IMG/VR virus record: IMGVR_UViG_3300043426_000133 | Coordinates: 1-32,648 of that record | Length of the DNA: 32,648 bases | Strand: one strand, 5' to 3' | Source: a virus | Part shown: in pieces, positions 5,293 to 26,975 of the stretch | Layout of the letters: each line of letters starts with the position of its first letter | How positions within the stretch are numbered: position 1 is the stretch's first letter | The notes under the pieces: generated by a model | The model's database searches: none | The model's input: only the letters and a program-made list of their open reading frames with translations | Told to the model about the DNA's origin: nothing | Program-made: the position numbers and the translations under genes

Positions 5293-6875
5293 TCATCCAC
5301 ACTTACTGGTGCCACAATTGGTGCATTTCTGGCAGCCTTCCTCGTACACCACCTTTCCCCCGCACTCTGAGCATGCAATACCTTTGGCTACCTCCCCGTT
5401 CTTGATGAACGTGCTCAAGTACTTACGAATAGCAAACAAGAAGCTACCAATGAACACATCTTCCACTTGCTCAAGGGTGGACACTACGCTTGTCACCTTC
5501 ACACCGTGCCGTAGGTTAAGGCTAATTGCTCTAGCAATCTTGCTTGGGTTATTGTCCCCAACAACTTTCTGCTCAATCTCCTGCACAAACTTCTCAGGAA
5601 CTCCTTTTGTACGTGCCAGATTGAACAACAAGTCTACTGCGTTTTGTGTTGTCACCCCCTTCTCTGAGTGATTGGTGTGTACAAACAAGGCCACGGGTTT
5701 GCTGTTATCTTCCGTTAAGATGGCTGTAACGTACCACTTCTTACCTTCTGCTTTCAATCGCTTTACGACAGCAGGAAGGCTATCAGGGAGCTTTACATCA
5801 TCAAGGATAATTTCCTCATCTTCTTGTTGATCGTCCTTTGCCGATAGAACACTTGCCATAGTACCAGACCGATAAGTAGTGAATCCCTTGATGAAGCCGG
5901 TGTTGTAGACATCAAGATACAAGTCCTTGAACTGTTCATAGCCATACTCATACGGCAGATTCACAGTTTTGCTACAAGCGGAGTCGGTGTATTTAGCAAA
6001 CACCTTCAGGCTTTCAACGTGGTCAGAAACACCTAGTTGCGTTGTGGTTGCTGCCCACTCAGCACTTGCATCCCATTCTCCACGCTCCTTCAGCCAGCGT
6101 ACAGCGTAGTCCTCGCAAGGAACTTCTTTTAGTAGTCCTCGGTTCTTGTCTATCTTGTACGTCACACCATTAAATACACCCTTCAGGATTGGTTCATCCC
6201 CTTCCTTCGTCTCCTTGAAGATTTCTGTCTCATACCACTGCCCCTCAAACCAACGAGGACATGCGTGAGCAATCTCCTCCGGCATCACTGGAACAATAAC
6301 TGTACGGATGTATTCCGGCATGAAGACAGGTTCAATACCTCCAGACACAATGTTTGCAAGGATACTTGTATTTCCAGTTGGTTGCTGAGACAGCAAGCTT
6401 GAGTTACGGATGCCCGTTGTACGCAGCTTCTGCATGTAGTCCTCATTCAGTCCGAGATTCTGGATGAATGGGGCTTTAGCGTGTTCTTCAGGGTTACAAT
6501 ACTTGAACATCCCTTTCTCAATAGCCAAGTCAATAGATGCTTCGTAGGCTGCAATAGCGTAAGCCTTGGAAACTTCCTCACACAGCCGGTTAGCCTCTTT
6601 AGAACCAAAGCGCACCTTGAGCATGAACAGGGCACTACCAACGCCCATCAAGCCAACTCCTACACGACGCTTATTGCGCATTGAATCAATGTACTGAGGC
6701 AGCGGGGCATTTGAGTATTCATTCACATTATCCAAGAACCTTACCATGTACTTCGTGTGCTTCTTGATGCCTTCGATATCGAACTTACGAACGCCATTTT
6801 CCTCTGTCACAAATTGTGTGAGGTTGATACTACCCAAGCAGCATATACCGCCCGGGGCTAAAACCTGCTCTCCAC
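5293..6875 (-). CDS. nrdJ: Ribonucleotide reductase, adenosylcobalamin-dependent: exon 2
   Basis: Second exon of nrdJ. It begins with the last two bases of the catalytic Cys codon (GT) followed by GGEQ-type residues G-E-Q-V-L-A-P-G-G-I-C-C-L-G-S-I-N-L, the core of class II reductases, and runs 526 codons to a stop. Later landmarks are 'QQPTGNTSILANIVSGGIEP' and a C-terminal cysteine-rich tail (CSECGG ... CQKCTNCGTSKCG) of the type that shuttles reducing equivalents in NrdJ. An apparent upstream extension of this frame (to 7041) is intron sequence and should not be translated. Spliced product with exon 1 is about 841 residues, normal for the family. Class II enzymes need vitamin B12, so the phage depends on host cobalamin. 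Confidence 0.92.
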
Positions 6876-7150
6876 CGCTTATGTTACGGATACATCGTTT
6901 CCATGTACCCTCTGCATGTCCCCATGCAGGCCAGACTATATCACAACCCGCGAGGGGTTTCTCCCATTTCGAGGTCACTTGGCCCCTACGGCTTTCGCCT
7001 AGTCGTTGCACGTTCTCCACTGCCATTACTTTCGCATACAAACGGTACTCGTGTTTGTGGAGCTTCGCTCAGGATTGACTGTTCTAGTCTTCCCCTGAAT
7101 TAGAGAGATTGTTCAAAAGCAATCGCTTGCTTAGGCCGCTAGTTTTGTTA
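6876..7150 (-). ncRNA. Group I self-splicing intron in nrdJ, 275 nt, no ORF
   Basis: Exon 1 ends ...ACAAACCCGT and exon 2 starts GTGGAGAGCAG; joining them recreates T-N-P-C-G-E-Q. The 5' splice site follows U and the intron ends in G (AAGCG), as group I chemistry requires. P1 is visible: exon CCGU plus intron UA pairs with UAGCGG, with a U-G wobble at the cut. The P and Q elements (AAUUCAGGGGAAG, and AAUCCUGAGC), R (GCAACGACUAG) and S (GAUAUAGUC) are present, giving P4 (CAGG/CCUG), P5 (GACU/AGUC) and P7 (GACUA/UAGUC). Two hairpins follow S: CUGCAUG/CAUGCAG and a UACAU/AUGUA stem. No homing endonuclease gene is inside. Unspliced RNA would hit a stop after six intron codons. Confidence 0.93.
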
Positions 7151-8093
7151 ACGGGTTTGTGGACTTTATATTTTCTTGGTACTTTGCAGGATTGTAGTAA
7201 TTCGCCCGATCAAGGAACAACACTCCCGGTTCTGCACGATTGTATGTGGATTCCATCACAAGGTTCCACAGTTGAAGAACAGAAATTGTGTCATACACAA
7301 CAACAGGATATCCTTTAGCTTTCCAATCCTTGATATTGCCATTCCATTTTGCTTTATACGACGGGTGCTCAGTATCCGGGAACACCAAATCCCATTTATC
7401 TAAGTCTGCAAACTTTACAGGGTCTTCTTTGAGTTTGTTCAATCGCTCCATAAACTCATCGGAGAAATTCACAGAGATGTTAAACTTAGTTAGGCGCCCG
7501 TGTTGTTGCTTTGCAGTGATGAATTCTATGACATCCGGGTGCCAATCATCCAAGCAGCCCATCATGGCACCTTTGCGAATCTTACCCTTGGCCTTGCTAT
7601 TGCTCTTCGTTTTACCAGAGCCTGATGTGACAATCTCAGATGACTTATCAAATAACTCCATAAACTTCACAGCCCCCGGGGTATCTACGCCGATCCCCTT
7701 GATATAAGCACCACGTGGGCGAATGTAAGAGAAGTTCTCGCCGTAGCCTCCTTCCGACGCCAGTGTTTTTGCCTGCCAGTCCAGCCGCTGCATAATGCCC
7801 TGCAGGGAGTCAATGTCGTCGACTGTGTCTGGTCCAACAAAACAGTTTGCAAGTGTTGTATTCTTGAAATCAGTGCCTGCGTTGCTATAGATACGCCCGC
7901 CTGTGGTAGATTTAAAATCTGCAAGCATGTCTCCAAACTTCTCAGTCCATTCTTGAACTTTCTCTGGTGTTTTCTCCACACTTGCAAGTGCTCTTGCTAC
8001 ACGAGACAGTGTATCATCGATAGTGACATCTTCATGAAACTTATACGTACTCTCCCAAACGTCTTTAGAAAAACTATCCTGAAATTTTGTCAT
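7151..8093 (-). CDS. nrdJ: Ribonucleotide reductase, adenosylcobalamin-dependent: exon 1
   Basis: First exon of nrdJ (class II ribonucleotide reductase), making deoxynucleotides for phage replication. It encodes 314 complete residues plus the first base of Cys315. Typical N-terminal features: 'DSFSKDVWESTYKFHEDVTI', 'GGRIYSNAGT', 'TTLANCFVGP' (redox-partner Cys) and 'ANYYNPAKYQENIKSTNP'. Two adjacent ATGs (8094-8096 and 8091-8093) follow AAAAGGG; the second has the better spacing. The frame stays open upstream to 8126, but that region codes the end of the 58-aa gene in another frame, so the longer start is less likely. Adenosylcobalamin dependence is inferred from family resemblance and from the absence of a radical-generating beta subunit gene nearby. 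Confidence 0.9.
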
Positions 8094-8250
8094 CATTTCC
8101 CTTTTCTTGTTGTTGTAGGCCATCAATCAGCCCTTGTTGATAAATACGCTGCGAGACTTTGTACAAAGCTGTATCGAAGCTATACCTGACGTTCGATGTA
8201 GCAGCCATTTCCTCCGCAAACATCTTACGAATTTCATTCAAATCAATCAT
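8074..8250 (-). CDS. Small unknown protein, 58 aa, overlapping the nrdJ start
   Basis: The ATG at 8248-8250 overlaps the upstream TGA (ATGA) and is preceded by GGAGGGGAG, one of the strongest ribosome binding sites here. The frame encodes 58 residues starting MIDLNEIRKMFAEEMAATSN and ends at TAG 8074-8076, about 20 bases inside nrdJ exon 1 in a different frame. A second internal GGAGGAAATG also precedes Met15. The protein is probably helical with a Gln-rich, hydrophilic C-terminus. No family is recognised. Its position between a coupled upstream gene and nrdJ suggests coupled translation into nrdJ. Confidence 0.75.
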   Translation of the reverse strand: MIDLNEIRKMFAEEMAATSNVRYSFDTALYKVSQRIYQQGLIDGLQQQEKGNDDKISG

Positions 8251-10750: not shown

Positions 10751-12490
10751 TTAGAACCCTTTATTGTTATTACTCATCCAATCATCAAAATCATGAAGTC
10801 GGTGTGTAAGGTTATCGTAGAATAAACAGCCAGCAGGGCCAGTTTGTCCAGACCACCGGCATTTCAACAATAAAAGGTATGTTGTATTACGAACAATAGG
10901 GTCTTCATTAGCCTTATCTCGTCCAGCTACTAAAATCCAAGCAGCAGACTTCGAAAGAGTAGATGAGCCATGCAGGCCAGACTCGTTCCCTAGCGCGCCA
11001 GCACTCCCATCTTTCTCTCCTGTCCCGGTTTTACGCTGGTGAGATACGTTAATGATGCAGCAATCGTAACGATTTACAATACTCTTTTGCCATTTCATCA
11101 AAACAGCCTGTTCGTCTGTAGTTAGCCCATCAAACATGTCGGAGATAGTATCAACAACGACCACCTTACACCCACAAGCAATTACCAGTTGCTCAATAGC
11201 TGACTTAAGGCTCTCTACGTCCCCGTCCCGGTCATCCACCACCATCCACCTATCTGTTCCATCCTCATTGAAGAATAGTTCCTTCTGTAACTCTACCGTT
11301 CGTTCAGATCGAAGAACAGTTAACTTGTCTGCTTGAGATAGATTTCCAAGTTTAATCTCAATATGACGGGATAACATAAGCTCTCCATATTGGCCTTTGT
11401 TCTGCTCCATGCTCACAACACCCATCTTATATGGAGAGCTGAATATCCAGTCATAGATGCACTCATTAACAATTGTACTCTTGGACTGCCCTGTAAAAGC
11501 ACTTATCACGCCTACAGTGCCTAATGGAATTCCGTCGGCGGTCATCTGGTTCAGTGTCTTCATGAACGAAGGTAGGCGCAACTTTGGTCGCAGAGCTTCC
11601 TCAATAACCGCGTCGTATAGCTCCCCACTGCCTACAATTCCAGTAGGAAGATGTGGGCGGGCTTTCCAGAAATCATCAATAAATTCGTGCTCTTTGCCAA
11701 GACGGATGTACTCATCAGCATCCTTATATCTCATCTTCATGATGTGCCCCTTACCTGCAGGCAGTACGTTACAAATGTCTTCATTGGCCTTCTTTCCAGT
11801 CTCATCATTATCCATACATACAATGATCTTTGAAAACTGAGAGAAGAAATCATATTGAGCTTGAACTTGTTTGAACGCACCATTTTCGCCAGTAGTGGGG
11901 CAAACTACAGCTACTGTCTCATACTCCTCCTTTCCACGTGCCCTTTGGTTATCAAGAAGCATTTGGTAAGCCGCTCGTTGTTTTATCTCTCCGCCTACAA
12001 TAAGAACTGTACGAGAGTGACTACTGAAACGAAACTGCCCAATAAGGTCGCACTCTTTCCCTACAACACCTATCGGATGCTTGAAGTCTTTTGGGAACAC
12101 CCTGGTCTTATATCCTACCAGCTTACCTCTAATTGTAGTCGGTACAAACTCCTTAATCGGCTCTCCTGTTTCTTCACTGTATTGATACCTAACACCAAAA
12201 AAGACATTTATATCCTTACGAATTCCTCTAAAGCCTTTTCCATCCGTGCCTGTATAGCTTTTAATATCTTCGTTCTGTTCCTCTGTAATTGGATCGCGTG
12301 TTGCCACTTCAACCTCCTTTTCTAATTTATTATCTCCGTTCTCGGCAAGCCACTGTTCAGACGGAATAGTGTACCCGCAAGAGAAACAGTATTTGGAGTT
12401 ATCCTCATATACTACAAGATTGTCACCGCTCCTGTCTGCCCCCTTCCCTCTACACTTAGGGCATACCTCTTTCCTTATGAACTGTCCCAT
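10751..12490 (-). CDS. T7 gp4-like DNA primase-helicase
   Basis: A 579-residue bifunctional primase-helicase, close to T7 gp4 in length. The N-terminal zinc-binding set is C10, C13, C35, C38. A TOPRIM-like core follows: 'LIVGGEIKQ' with Glu168 and 'CMDNDETG' with D227/D229. The RecA-like helicase domain starts near residue 300 with a P-loop AFTGQSKST (residues 331-339) and a Walker B-like 'VVVVDTISDMFDG'. Unusually, the Gly normally before the P-loop Lys is Ser336. It unwinds DNA and primes lagging strands with the polymerase encoded on the other arm. The ribosome binding site is weak (GAGG about 11 bases upstream), two bases after the preceding stop, suggesting coupling. Confidence 0.93.
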   Translation of the reverse strand: MGQFIRKEVCPKCRGKGADRSGDNLVVYEDNSKYCFSCGYTIPSEQWLAENGDNKLEKEVEVATRDPITEEQNEDIKSYTGTDGKGFRGIRKDINVFFGVRYQYSEETGEPIKEFVPTTIRGKLVGYKTRVFPKDFKHPIGVVGKECDLIGQFRFSSHSRTVLIVGGEIKQRAAYQMLLDNQRARGKEEYETVAVVCPTTGENGAFKQVQAQYDFFSQFSKIIVCMDNDETGKKANEDICNVLPAGKGHIMKMRYKDADEYIRLGKEHEFIDDFWKARPHLPTGIVGSGELYDAVIEEALRPKLRLPSFMKTLNQMTADGIPLGTVGVISAFTGQSKSTIVNECIYDWIFSSPYKMGVVSMEQNKGQYGELMLSRHIEIKLGNLSQADKLTVLRSERTVELQKELFFNEDGTDRWMVVDDRDGDVESLKSAIEQLVIACGCKVVVVDTISDMFDGLTTDEQAVLMKWQKSIVNRYDCCIINVSHQRKTGTGEKDGSAGALGNESGLHGSSTLSKSAAWILVAGRDKANEDPIVRNTTYLLLLKCRWSGQTGPAGCLFYDNLTHRLHDFDDWMSNNNKGF

Positions 12491-17640: not shown

Positions 17641-17871
17641 ATGGAATACAGACTCCCTAACTGGGACACTACGTTTGATGTCAACGACTTCTACGCAGCA
17701 TGGGATGCCTTGAGTGTTCCATTTGAGAAAATGGGATTCAAACTGGTTTCTTACAGCCCGGGGCTTTGTTTCTCTTATGGACAGTATGGGAGAACGTTTG
17801 AGATTCCTGCTTGTGTGGCGGCTATTATTGTAGAAAGATTACAGGGTGTTGTGGATGTGAAGGAGGGGTGA
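17641..17871 (+). CDS. Hypothetical phage protein, 76 aa
   Basis: Starts MEYRLPNWDTTFDVNDFYAA one base after the membrane-protein stop, preceded by GTTGGTGAAGTGAT, a weak site, so translation may be coupled. The 76-residue acidic alpha/beta protein ends VVDVKEG. It is unrelated to any family I recognise. Its stop TGA overlaps the start of the homing endonuclease gene by one base; the GAAGGAGGGG inside its last codons is that gene's ribosome binding site. Confidence 0.65.
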   Translation: MEYRLPNWDTTFDVNDFYAAWDALSVPFEKMGFKLVSYSPGLCFSYGQYGRTFEIPACVAAIIVERLQGVVDVKEG

Positions 17872-18545
17872 TGGCAAAAGACTCTGGATTGCGTAAAGGC
17901 GACAGATTTGGAAGACTTGTGGTTGATTCATGGGTGAAAGAGAAGCAAGGATGGAGGTGCTTCTGTGATTGCGGTAGTGTTGTTTTTAAACCAGCCAGCC
18001 ACCTAAAATGTGGGAGTGTCCTATCTTGTGGATGCTATCGCAAGGAGTGTGATACCTTTAATGGCGGAACAATGTCTTACGAGTTCTCCTCCTTTATAGC
18101 AATGCACTCCAGAGCTGGCGATAAGCTCCAAGAAGGAAGGGTTAAGAGACAATACTACGACCAAGGAATAAGAGTTTGTGAAAGGTGGAGTTACTCCCTT
18201 GAAGGCTTTCAGAATTTTATTACTGATCTTGGAGAAAGACCGGAAGACTACACACTGGAAAGGAAAAATACAAATCTTGGTTACTGCCCTGAAAATTGTT
18301 GTTGGGAAACTAAAACAAACCAAGCATTTAACAGAACAAAATTCAGGAACAACAAGTCTGGAGTAACAGGTGTATCGTTCGACAAGAGTAAAGATAAATG
18401 GGTTGCATATATCCATAAGAATAAGGTAAAGTATCTACTCGGGTGTTTCAATTCTTTTGAGGATGCAGTTTCAGCCAGAAAATCTGCAGAACTTGAAATT
18501 TATCCTGAGAAGATTCAGGACTATATTAGCACACAGGGGGAATAA
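17871..18545 (+). CDS. Free-standing HNH/AP2-type homing endonuclease
   Basis: The start is the ATG at 17871 (GGAGGGGTGATGG); the longer frame is Cys-rich shadow sequence. The 224-residue protein has three parts. The first is a zinc-binding N-terminus (FGRLVVDSWV, WRCFCDCGS, SVLSCGC). The second is an HNH-type core (GIRVCERWSYSLEGFQNFIT, DLGERPEDYTLERKN, GYCPENCCWETKTNQAFNRT). The third is a C-terminal AP2-like DNA-binding domain (NNKSGVTGVSFDKSKDKWVA, YLLGCFNSFEDAVSARKSAE). Such genes are selfish elements that cut specific DNA sites. It is wedged by one-base overlaps between a small gene and DNA polymerase and looks more AT-rich than its neighbours, consistent with insertion. Confidence 0.88.
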   Translation: MAKDSGLRKGDRFGRLVVDSWVKEKQGWRCFCDCGSVVFKPASHLKCGSVLSCGCYRKECDTFNGGTMSYEFSSFIAMHSRAGDKLQEGRVKRQYYDQGIRVCERWSYSLEGFQNFITDLGERPEDYTLERKNTNLGYCPENCCWETKTNQAFNRTKFRNNKSGVTGVSFDKSKDKWVAYIHKNKVKYLLGCFNSFEDAVSARKSAELEIYPEKIQDYISTQGE

Positions 18546-20650
18546 TGGAAGGCTACGTGTTCGATCTAGAGGGGGACAATCTGTACTTGGGTTGTAAGAA
18601 GATTTGGTATGGGAATTTCAAATCATTAGACGGCACACGTTCCCTTTCAGTTCATCCGTTCCAAGAAGGAAACGAAGAAGCACAAGGTAAGATTTTGGAG
18701 TGGATTCATAGCTTCTCTGACAAAGCCTTGTGTTGCTCCTTTAATGGTTTATCTTACGACCACTTTGTCTTGTGGAGACTTCTGGGCCTTAAACCAACTG
18801 TTGGTAAAGGTGGTAAGGATTATTTTGCAGATAAAGAAGTTATATTTTTTGATGCTTTCTACAATGCTCAGTTTCTTAATCCGAACTTGCCAGAGTTCTC
18901 TCTTGCTGCGTTGTCGCGTGGATCAAGTGCAGAGAAGATTGATTATCGTGAAAGGCTTGTTCAAGCAGGAGCAATGATTGGAAATGAGGTCAAGGGTTTC
19001 GAATTTTCTTTCTACAATCCTTTAATGGATGAATACTGCGACGCAGACGTTGAAGCAACACGCGTACTTGTTTTGAAACAACTTGCTGAGCTTAAAGAGT
19101 TATATGGGGATGTTCGCCCCCCATCGCTGAGAATGGGTACAAAAGCCCAATTCCTCATGAAAGCCCAAGAACACACAGGGCACGGCTTTGATGAAAAATT
19201 GGCAGCAGAGGTAATGATCAGTTTGAACAAGGACATGGAAGAACTTGAGTCAGAGGTTCTCCCTAAGCTTCCGCCACGCCCTTTGAAGAAAGGGGAGGAA
19301 GCAGAGTACTCAATGCCCGCAAAACCTTACAAGAAGGATGGGTCTTTTAGTAGTCATATGGAGAACTTCATTTCCAAGCACTCCGGTGTGGTTAAGTCTA
19401 AAGACACTGTTGAGTTCTTCGGTAAGGACTATAAGGTTGAGGCAAAGAAGATTTTAGATATAAAGCTTCCAATGGTTATTGGGGATCAACAGCATTTCAA
19501 AGAGTGGCTTCTCAGTCAAGGGTGGGTGCCTACTTTCTATAATTTTCAACGTGGCCCAGATGGTAAGCCTGTTAGGGACGACAAAGGTAACTACATCGAA
19601 ACATCTCCGAAGTTGCAGGAACAAGGGGTGATCTGCCCAAATCTTCTTGAATTAGAGGGCGACGTAGTTAAGGAGGTTGTTAAGTTTTTATCTTTAAGGA
19701 ATCGCAGGTCTGTGCTGCAAGGTTGGTTGGATAATCCCCGTCTAAAATACGATGGAAGACTGCCAACAGCTTCCTCAAAAATTGCCAACTCTCACAGGCA
19801 ATGTCACGCAGTGGTTTGTAATGTTCCTCGTGCTGGGGGTCAGAGTCTGTATGGGGACGAGTTTAGGAGCCTGTTTTGTGCAGAGGGAGAGAACCTTATC
19901 GCTGCTGCTGATGCAAGTGGGCTAGAGCAGCGTGTTGCTGGACACATGACTTTTAAGTATGATGAAGGCAAGTACGCGGAGGAGTTGCTGAAAGGGGATG
20001 TACACTCCAAGGTTGCATTTGCAATGTTTGAAAGAGAACTGGCTGCCTTAGGGTTCTCCCCAGACAAGTTTGACAAAGAGGACAGAAGATTTAAGCCATT
20101 TAGAAGCAAAGCTAAAACAGCAGGATATGCTATACTGTATGGTTGTTCCCCAGCAAAGCTAGCCAAAACCCTCAACAAACCAGATAAGGACGGAAAACGC
20201 CTGCACAAAGCATTCTGGGACGCAAATCCCGCAATGGCGCAGTTGGTTGAGAATATTGGAAAGTATTGGGAAACAAAAGGTAAAAAGACATTTGTGCCTG
20301 CTGTGGACGGTAGGTTGCTGAGAACTCGTTCAAAGCATTCTCTTTTAAATAATATCCTACAGAGTTTGGGGGCAATCGTAATGGACTTAGCTTGTTGTTT
20401 CATGGATGCAAAACTTGGTGAAATGTTTATTGATGAACTTGGGAGACCATATTACCTGTACAAAGGCAAACAGGTCAGGCGTGTCGTCTACTATCACGAC
20501 GAGTATTCTTTTGAGTGTGCCCCAGAGGTAGCGGAGGAAGTGAAGAAAATGGCAGAAAACAGCATTGCTGAAGCTGGAAGATTCTTTAAACTAAACGTAG
20601 AGTTGGCTGGAGAGGGGAAGGTGGGTAAATCATGGCAAGCGGTGCATTGA
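18545..20650 (+). CDS. T7-like family A DNA polymerase with 3'-5' exonuclease
   Basis: A 701-residue replicative polymerase, near T7 gp5 (704). Exonuclease motifs are intact: D7/E9 (FDLEGDN), N67/D72 (FNGLSYDHF) and Y164/D168 (YCDAD). Polymerase motif A is ADASGLEQR with Asp456, motif B RSKAKTAGYAILYG, motif C YYHDEYSFE with His651-Asp652-Glu653. It copies phage DNA with the primase-helicase and SSB also encoded here; a processivity factor may come from the host, as thioredoxin does for T7. The ATG overlaps the endonuclease TAA (TAATG) with GGGGG just upstream. No intron or intein interrupts it. Confidence 0.96.
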   Translation: MEGYVFDLEGDNLYLGCKKIWYGNFKSLDGTRSLSVHPFQEGNEEAQGKILEWIHSFSDKALCCSFNGLSYDHFVLWRLLGLKPTVGKGGKDYFADKEVIFFDAFYNAQFLNPNLPEFSLAALSRGSSAEKIDYRERLVQAGAMIGNEVKGFEFSFYNPLMDEYCDADVEATRVLVLKQLAELKELYGDVRPPSLRMGTKAQFLMKAQEHTGHGFDEKLAAEVMISLNKDMEELESEVLPKLPPRPLKKGEEAEYSMPAKPYKKDGSFSSHMENFISKHSGVVKSKDTVEFFGKDYKVEAKKILDIKLPMVIGDQQHFKEWLLSQGWVPTFYNFQRGPDGKPVRDDKGNYIETSPKLQEQGVICPNLLELEGDVVKEVVKFLSLRNRRSVLQGWLDNPRLKYDGRLPTASSKIANSHRQCHAVVCNVPRAGGQSLYGDEFRSLFCAEGENLIAAADASGLEQRVAGHMTFKYDEGKYAEELLKGDVHSKVAFAMFERELAALGFSPDKFDKEDRRFKPFRSKAKTAGYAILYGCSPAKLAKTLNKPDKDGKRLHKAFWDANPAMAQLVENIGKYWETKGKKTFVPAVDGRLLRTRSKHSLLNNILQSLGAIVMDLACCFMDAKLGEMFIDELGRPYYLYKGKQVRRVVYYHDEYSFECAPEVAEEVKKMAENSIAEAGRFFKLNVELAGEGKVGKSWQAVH

Positions 20651-22568: not shown

Positions 22569-23063
22569 ATGAAGAAATGTAAGCAATGTGGAGCACTACT
22601 CCCTTTATCAGAGTACTATGACACAAAGGCAGGGAAGTTCAGTAAGTGCAAAGAGTGTGTTAGAGAAAATGTTAAGAAAAACAGGGCAGATAAAGAAGAG
22701 TACTACAAAGCTTATGATAGAAATCGCCCTGACAAAGAAGAACGTAATAAAGCCACATTAGATCGACAAAAGACTCCAGAAGGAAAACAGGCACACAATA
22801 AGCGGAATAAAGAGTGGGCGGACAGGAATACTAAACAACGGGCAGCAAATTATGCCGTATCTAATGCAGTTCGCGACGGAGTGCTGAAGAAGCTCCCCTG
22901 CTTCGTATGTGGAGATCTAGAGGTTGAAGGGCACCACCCTGATTATGACACACCTCTCGATGTTGTCTGGCTATGTACTGCACACCATAAAGAGATTCAC
23001 AGGAAATACGATGCAGACAAGGACGCTCGTATTTTGTTCGAGAAGGTAAGAAGGGAGGGATAA
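22569..23063 (+). CDS. HNH endonuclease with N-terminal zinc finger
   Basis: A 164-residue protein. The N-terminus MKKCKQCGALLPLSEYY, with 'CKECVRENVKKNRADK', is a four-cysteine zinc finger common to phage HNH proteins. A basic helical linker follows. The C-terminal HNH core is 'LPCFVCGDLEVEGHHPDYDT' and 'VVWLCTAHHKEIHRKYD', with the two CxxC-type metal ligands and the HH/H catalytic residues. It is probably a free-standing homing endonuclease. It starts 20 bases after the SSB terminator stem with a weak ribosome binding site (AGGAATCACC), and its stop overlaps the exonuclease start (TAATG). Poor expression signals and insertion between replication genes fit a selfish element. Confidence 0.85.
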   Translation: MKKCKQCGALLPLSEYYDTKAGKFSKCKECVRENVKKNRADKEEYYKAYDRNRPDKEERNKATLDRQKTPEGKQAHNKRNKEWADRNTKQRAANYAVSNAVRDGVLKKLPCFVCGDLEVEGHHPDYDTPLDVVWLCTAHHKEIHRKYDADKDARILFEKVRREG

Positions 23064-24416: not shown

Positions 24417-24977
24417 ATGAGTAAACTGAAAGAGATGTTGGAGTGTGTTCCTTCTGTATGGAAAACTGAAGCAGCCTTCTGGGCATGGGTAAAGGGAGGC
24501 ATTAGGAAATCCCTGTGGAACAGACACCCGGTAAAAATTTCCTTCACACGAGAACGGAGATTGAAAATCCCCAATCCTAATCCAAGGGGAAAGGCAAAGG
24601 AAGTGTGGGGTGGTAGGTGCGAGATATGTGGAGATCTTTTTGTTGAATCGCAGCTTCAATGTGACCACAAGAGCGAAGAAACTGCACACTTGACAAAGCA
24701 AGAACACTTGCAGGGATGCTTCGAGAAGCTGTGTATTATCGTACCAGACGATTTACGATGGGTTTGTAAGGGATGCCACTCTATTCACAGCTACTCGCAG
24801 AAATCTGGATTATCTTTTGAACAAGCAGCCCTTGAAAAGCAAGTGATATCCTTCAAGAAGAATTCAGCTACCAAGCAAAAGGAAATATTGACAGAACTTG
24901 GAATTGAGGGTATAATGCTTACAACATCTGAGAAGCGAGCAAATGCTTATCGTGAGCATCTTAACCGTGCAATTTGA
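24417..24977 (+). CDS. HNH/endonuclease VII-like phage protein
   Basis: A 186-residue protein starting MSKLKEMLECVPSVWKTEAA. The N-terminal 'AFWAWVKGGIRKSLWNRHPV', then 'RRLKIPNPNPRGKAKEVWGG', 'CEICGDLFVESQLQCDHKSE', 'DLRWVCKGCHSIHSYSQKSG' and 'SFEQAALEKQ' match a recurrent phage family annotated as HNH endonuclease, found next to 5'-3' exonuclease genes of T7-like replication modules. Metal ligands are the CxxC and CxxCH pairs and the DH site. It may be a true replication nuclease rather than a homing enzyme, because it is conserved in this position. A perfect promoter lies in its 3' end. The ribosome binding site (AACAAGGACATCT) is modest. Confidence 0.8.
   Translation: MSKLKEMLECVPSVWKTEAAFWAWVKGGIRKSLWNRHPVKISFTRERRLKIPNPNPRGKAKEVWGGRCEICGDLFVESQLQCDHKSEETAHLTKQEHLQGCFEKLCIIVPDDLRWVCKGCHSIHSYSQKSGLSFEQAALEKQVISFKKNSATKQKEILTELGIEGIMLTTSEKRANAYREHLNRAI
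24888..24916 (+). promoter_or_regulatory. Consensus sigma-70 promoter inside the HNH-like gene
   Basis: TTGACA (24888-24893), exactly 17 bases, TATAAT (24911-24916): both hexamers match consensus perfectly. The start near 24923 lies about 65 bases upstream of the phosphoesterase start codon, so it probably drives that gene and those following. Confidence 0.65.
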
Positions 24978-26477: not shown

Positions 26478-26975
26478 ATGGACTTAAACGCACGATTTGT
26501 AGAGGTGGTGGAATTCAACACAATGGCTGGATTTCTCACGGACGTTAGCAGCGAAAGCCTCTTGGCCCAAGCACGTAACGTAAGGGAGGAAGCCAATGAG
26601 CTGTTCGATGCAATCAACAACAATGAGCCTCCAGAGAATGTTCTGAAGGAGCTGTGTGACACCCTTGTAACGTCCTTTGGCATGCTGGCAGCTCTGACGA
26701 AGAAAGGGTTTGATACAGATAAGGCATTCAAGTTGGTTAATGAGAACAACATGTCAAAGTTTTGTGATACGCCAATGAATGCTTATTACACGTCAGCAGG
26801 TTACAACGCCACAGAAGGGGTAAATACAGCAGTGAAGCCATTGGTTGGAGGGCTGTATGGTGTATTCGATGAGAATGGAAAGCTACGAAAACCTATTGGA
26901 TATGAGCCTGTAGACAAGAAAGAGTTGTGTAAGTGCTGCCCGCCTAAAGATGGAATTTGCTGCAAGGAGGAATAA
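26478..26975 (+). CDS. MazG-like nucleotide pyrophosphohydrolase with cysteine-rich tail
   Basis: A 165-residue protein starting MDLNARFVEVVEFNTMAGFL after AGGAGGAAC. The helical core carries the all-alpha NTP pyrophosphatase signature: E37-E38-x-x-E41 (NVREEANELFDAI) and E58-x-x-D61 (VLKELCDTLVTSFGM), followed by 'KGFDTDKAFKLVNENNMSKF', typical of phage MazG/PRA-PH-like enzymes that hydrolyse (d)NTPs or related alarmones. The last 20 residues contain five cysteines (CKCCPPKDGICC), an uncommon tail that could bind zinc. It fits the phage's nucleotide-pool genes. Confidence 0.85.
   Translation: MDLNARFVEVVEFNTMAGFLTDVSSESLLAQARNVREEANELFDAINNNEPPENVLKELCDTLVTSFGMLAALTKKGFDTDKAFKLVNENNMSKFCDTPMNAYYTSAGYNATEGVNTAVKPLVGGLYGVFDENGKLRKPIGYEPVDKKELCKCCPPKDGICCKEE

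Follow-up and report, generated by a model that had tools for sequence, protein, structure and literature searches.

A group I intron in the predicted thiyl-radical cysteine codon of a viral class II ribonucleotide reductase gene

Introns and inteins in reductase genes

Introns and inteins have a known preference for sites that are conserved (PMC2814812) and for reductase genes (PMC3653736). We describe here a group I intron in nrdJ on a 32,648-nucleotide stretch of viral DNA (the window; positions 1 to 32,648 of IMG/VR record IMGVR_UViG_3300043426_000133). The introns of phage T4 nrdB and Staphylococcus phage Twort have cores 73-79% identical to that of the window intron (blastn). T4 provides another group I intron in a phage reductase gene, but nrdB encodes the small subunit. 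Twort differs in that its SNLC-type motif (SNLCCE) carries no insertion; its two nrdE introns lie elsewhere, one close to the region of the first redox cysteine and the other towards the C terminus. Since their positions differ, the Twort nrdE introns are ruled out as same-site homologues.

The NrdJ-1 split intein, whose native flanks are NPC and SEI (PMC13123727), sits in the same motif as the window intron. It acts by protein splicing and is inserted after the Cys, whereas the window element is an RNA intron inside the codon. An intein in nrdA of Pectobacterium phage CB7 (L372, CB7_201) is located exactly before the thiyl Cys (SNL[C...Q]CMEI), differing from the window element in being an intein and in belonging to a class Ia enzyme; CB7 nrdA also has a separate HNH intron, with splicing detected by RT-PCR (PMC7344957). 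Finally, Pseudomonas phage SPA01 has an 865-nt insert directly after the thiyl Cys codon of nrdA (L369:2848-3712), annotated merely as hypothetical proteins. This insert is similar to the same-site introns described below in its 3' end (GAGTAACAAATTG) and in its LAGLIDADG_2 ORF, the endonuclease family of the large same-site introns, but it interrupts a class Ia gene and is offset 2 nt downstream from the site in the window. It shows group I features and scores weakly with Rfam (32 bits, E 5e-6), and the sibling phage PAK_P1 has the empty (intron-minus) allele. In Pseudomonas phage FBPa8 (L370:2558-4338), we also observed that nrdB is divided in two by an ORF with a relationship to the LAGLIDADG family of SPA01. 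Our literature search, with subscription papers mostly outside its reach, found no group I intron in this Cys codon.

The window intron and its host gene

The initial annotation had placed an ORF-less group I intron at 6876-7150, and these boundaries proved exact. The intron occupies 275 nt on the minus strand, from its first base at 7150 to a terminal G at 6876; the strand of nrdJ, which the annotation had left unstated, is likewise minus. The covariance-model search that it had proposed was positive, with a match to Rfam Intron_gpI (RF00028) at 7160-6912 (-) scoring 64 bits (E 3.3e-14) over a gathering score of 50. Families other than Intron_gpI, riboswitches included, were not matched within the window. 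Translation of the 275 nt gave stop codons in all three frames, confirming the lack of an ORF and ruling out an intein, which would be an insert open in frame. The G+C content is 0.49 for the intron vs 0.45 for the window. Direct inspection of the sequence confirmed the U-G pair of P1 at the cut and the terminal G that had been described, and also showed the internal guide sequence. Excision joins ACAAACCCGT to GTGGAGAGCAG, and the fused exons read ...STNPCGEQVLAPGG... in frame and without a stop, restoring TNPCGEQ as claimed. The Cys codon is thereby divided between its first and second base (T↓GT).

The intron is not an assembly artefact, because it is also present in an 80-kb contig (L002) and other viruses have homologues of it at the same codon. 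L002 is the same virus as the window, the compared stretch being identical over 14,123 bases.

Table 1. Positions of the nrdJ exons and of intron elements in the window.
Feature	Position	Strand	Basis or remarks
nrdJ exon 1	7151..8123	-	ATG at 8123; ends ...ACA AAC CCG T
nrdJ exon 2	5293..6875	-	starts GT GGA GAG CAG; C-terminal CxxC motifs
P1 5' strand CCGU↓UA	7149..7154	-	sequence; U at -1; 5' splice site falls between 7151 and 7150
Internal guide sequence UAGCGG (P1 3' strand)	7136..7141	-	G opposite U at cut
P2 hairpin AAGCAA-GCGA-UUGCUU	7117..7132	-	two-sided changes in 6/6 pairs among relatives
P4 (UCAGGG/UCCUGA) around P5 (GACU/AGUC)	7069..7098	-	Rfam match and covariation
P7 5' strand GACUA (R element)	7000..7004	-	Rfam match and covariation
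P7 3' strand UAGUC (S element)	6934..6938	-	Rfam match and covariation
P9 hairpin CUGCAUG-GGGA-CAUGCAG	6912..6929	-	Rfam match and covariation
Extra 3' hairpin, P9.1-like, GGGUACAU...AUGUAUCC	6888..6910	-	sequence only
Terminal G	6876..6876	-	sequence; relatives share 3' end pattern GUAACA...G

The predicted intron elements are listed in Table 1. P1 is only 6 bp long, the GC before the terminal G is able to pair with the GC after P7 as P9.0, and a search of the window intron for P10 found no convincing candidate. Stems between P7 and P3, seen by eye, resemble P7.1/P7.2 of phage IA2 introns and are at the expected place, suggesting a group IA-like subclass. We examined covariation in 11 ORF-less same-site introns, including that of the window, counting 35 base pairs, with P3 and P8 outside the counted structure. 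RNAalifold on this set recovered P1, P2, P4, P5, P6, P7 and P9. Compensatory (double) changes occurred in 21 of the 35 pairs, standard pairing was found in 95.1% of pair cells, and there were 74 double-change cells, compared with 22.2 +/- 3.8 after shuffling and at most 19 when slid. P1 and the 5' exon were part of the search pattern, which makes their invariance in the family a product of construction; the near-invariance of P1 carries no weight as support. Overall, the element is, as far as its sequence tells, an ordinary ribozyme at an unusually informative site; the intron belongs to an already known kind, and the insertion site is the interesting part.

The two exons fuse into an 851-aa class II reductase that scored over the cut-off of NCBIfam TIGR02504, adenosylcobalamin-dependent reductase NrdJ (438.3 vs 399.95 bits). 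In a phmmer alignment, the NPCGE Cys of the split codon is opposite residue 322 of Thermotoga maritima NrdJ (1xje), the thiyl-radical Cys. The product is thus a predicted class II ribonucleotide reductase NrdJ with the catalytic NPCGE Cys present, and the prediction that the intron splits the thiyl-radical codon held up. The earlier numbering of this residue as Cys315 agrees if translation starts at an alternative ATG at 8093, the second Met of MMTKF, which is preceded by an AGGGAA-like ribosome site; the first ATG, at 8123, gives Cys325. Comparison with the two nearest relatives indicated purifying selection on both exons (pN ~0.2, pS ~0.83; dS is saturated and the direction of selection alone is clear), with exon 2 constrained about as much as exon 1. 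Because both exons are similarly constrained, nrdJ is presumably functional. The unspliced RNA reads STNPLTKLAA and then a stop; lacking the catalytic Cys codon, it would have to be spliced for reductase activity. The annotation's argument that precise loss of the intron would be selected and imprecise loss would be lethal to the enzyme is sound reasoning.

Elsewhere, the window encodes ThyX (1549-2223, -), Toprim/DnaB-like primase-helicase (10751-12490, -), family A DNA polymerase (18545-20650, +) and MazG (26478-26975, +) domains, which together make up a set of phage nucleotide and replication genes.

Same-site introns and other elements in the catalytic motif

To sample the site without bias, we selected genes by the protein sequence upstream of it only. 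The Cys codon was interrupted in 15 of 78 informative viral genes, if an intron 5 nt downstream (L144/L169) is counted, and in 9 of 79 cellular genes; the other 63 viral relatives were uninterrupted. Among the 78 are the window's own virus and some pairs that are nearly identical. Homologous ORF-less introns at T↓GT were found in L170 (337 nt) and L230 (230 nt). A scan with a pattern that combined P1 with the 5' exon and was restricted to the CCG codon matched 41 viral contigs. In at least 26, which include the window's own virus and some members near-identical to one another, both exons meet at the Cys codon with the intron between its first and second base. Four further matches (L334, L335, L349 and L364) had no second exon in the DNA stretches examined, and 11 were rejected as not being reductase introns (L329, L341, L343-345, L348, L357, L362, L363, L366 and L368). 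All of the rejected matches other than L341 represent a common non-reductase sequence that fits the P1 pattern and has an in-frame stop upstream.

The host genes of this family encode both dimeric (NrdJ, TIGR02504) and monomeric (RTPR, TIGR02505) class II reductases. For TIGR02505, L331 scored over the cut-off, while L332, L333 and L367 had their best match there but remained below it. Twelve examined family members are ORF-less and 190-337 nt long; others measure ~660-860 nt and have an ORF, and the two ORFs scanned both matched LAGLIDADG families (PF03161 in L328, PF14528 in L332). The enzyme tree splits three dimeric from eight monomeric reductases with full support, whereas the intron tree does not. 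A single clade of introns from dimeric enzymes was rejected (AU p 0.00038; the grouping was chosen after the resemblance had been noticed, and the p value is indicative). An example is the intron of L230, in a dimeric enzyme, which is 80% identical to that of L358, in a monomeric enzyme. The conflict between the intron tree and the enzyme tree means that the intron was transferred from one enzyme family to another.

The window intron, with stops in all frames, has no homing endonuclease gene, whereas same-site relatives do encode LAGLIDADG ORFs. The window copy would be either a derivative that lost its endonuclease or one dependent on an endonuclease in trans. Three window ORFs (17811-18545, 22569-23063 and 24417-24977, +) appear HNH-like by eye; none is near nrdJ, and none had a supported Pfam match.

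The same motif is interrupted by other types of element. Inteins directly before the Cys were found in viral loci (L006, L038, L037/L243, L077, L216, L227, L231, L240 and L241) and in cellular loci that include L249, L254 and L271; Pfam intein splicing or LAGLIDADG/HNH domains were present in the scanned insertions. Split inteins in the motif were recognised by their reading frames in L051/L157, L064 and L054. The halves in L054 (2468-4040) are ~1.6 kb apart, and the ORF between them looks by eye like a Vsr-like endonuclease and had no Pfam match. Another group I intron, distinct from that of the window and 234 nt long, lies 5 nt downstream (...TGT GGT-intron-GAG) in L144, whose enzyme is among the nearest to that of the window (72% identity in the best segment). 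In one gene (L214:6402-7132), a split intein precedes the Cys, and a separate group I intron follows within the motif, a few bases further downstream. Additional insertions in genes of this enzyme family (L036, L077, L085, L137, L141, L214, L216 and L227) cluster near codons 97, 193, 493 and 629.

Judged from these sequences, the catalytic motif hosts group I introns in two or more positions as well as inteins and split inteins, and the Cys codon has the appearance of a preferred insertion point for genetic parasites. The many separate insertions at the motif fit with a target that is conserved and unmutable. We consider it probable that one group I intron lineage has become a specialist of the thiyl-radical Cys codon and passes from one reductase family to another although these have little sequence in common beyond the motif, with inteins and split inteins competing for those few bases, sometimes next to each other in one gene.

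Proposed mechanism, alternatives and significance

The element is very probably a group IA-like self-splicing intron of a mobile lineage that targets the Cys codon of class II reductases, the window copy being endonuclease-free. It would excise itself from the nrdJ mRNA through the standard pair of guanosine-driven transesterifications, so that T and GT reunite as the thiyl-radical Cys codon and the junction reads ACAAACCCGTGTGGAGAG. The guide sequence of the lineage matches the Asn-Pro-Cys codons of class II reductases, and members bearing an endonuclease may have spread to this Cys codon across separate reductase families. Its splicing, its homing and the way in which the ORF-less state arose are inferred.

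The initial annotation had also suggested that splicing could couple dNTP synthesis to infection conditions, a claim left unsupported by a sequence in which no regulatory element was found. In its general form, the idea is that the spliced intron doubles as a control point, with splicing efficiency setting the reductase level during infection. Splicing would indeed be obligatory for activity, as unspliced RNA cannot encode the catalytic Cys, but no riboswitch or Rfam family besides the intron was matched in the window, 63 of the 78 viral relatives do without any insert, and the inteins and split inteins at the same codon argue for targeting of the site rather than control at the RNA level. We regard such a role as quite unlikely. 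Because introns, inteins and split inteins are all found in one motif, the site pattern is better explained by selfish elements targeting conserved sequence than by regulation.

A gene in pieces, in which splicing has been lost and the enzyme is put together from two protein halves, has a precedent in NrdA of Aeromonas phage Aeh1 (PMC3653736, PMC7344957). Such an arrangement could draw on the stop within the intron that ends the exon 1 reading and on an ORF with a TTG start that opens at 7041, also within the intron. However, the split falls inside the Cys codon, neither half would have the thiyl-radical residue, and the core pairing is intact and covarying. With the Cys codon itself divided, an Aeh1-like split gene is ruled out, and we give the broader reading very little credence. 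A dead gene with a decaying intron or a chance fold, to which the absence of an endonuclease gene might point, is barely credible given the Rfam E value of 3e-14, the purifying selection on both exons and the occurrence in other viruses of homologous introns at this codon.

A mobile intron aimed at the Cys codon remains our preferred reading. In three reductase types (dimeric class II, monomeric class II and class Ia), a single catalytic codon, give or take a few bases, is the insertion point of both RNA- and protein-based elements. Together they provide a natural test system for how an intron changes its host gene, for whether intron and intein exclude each other, and for whether unmutable residues shield selfish elements from resistance and loss.
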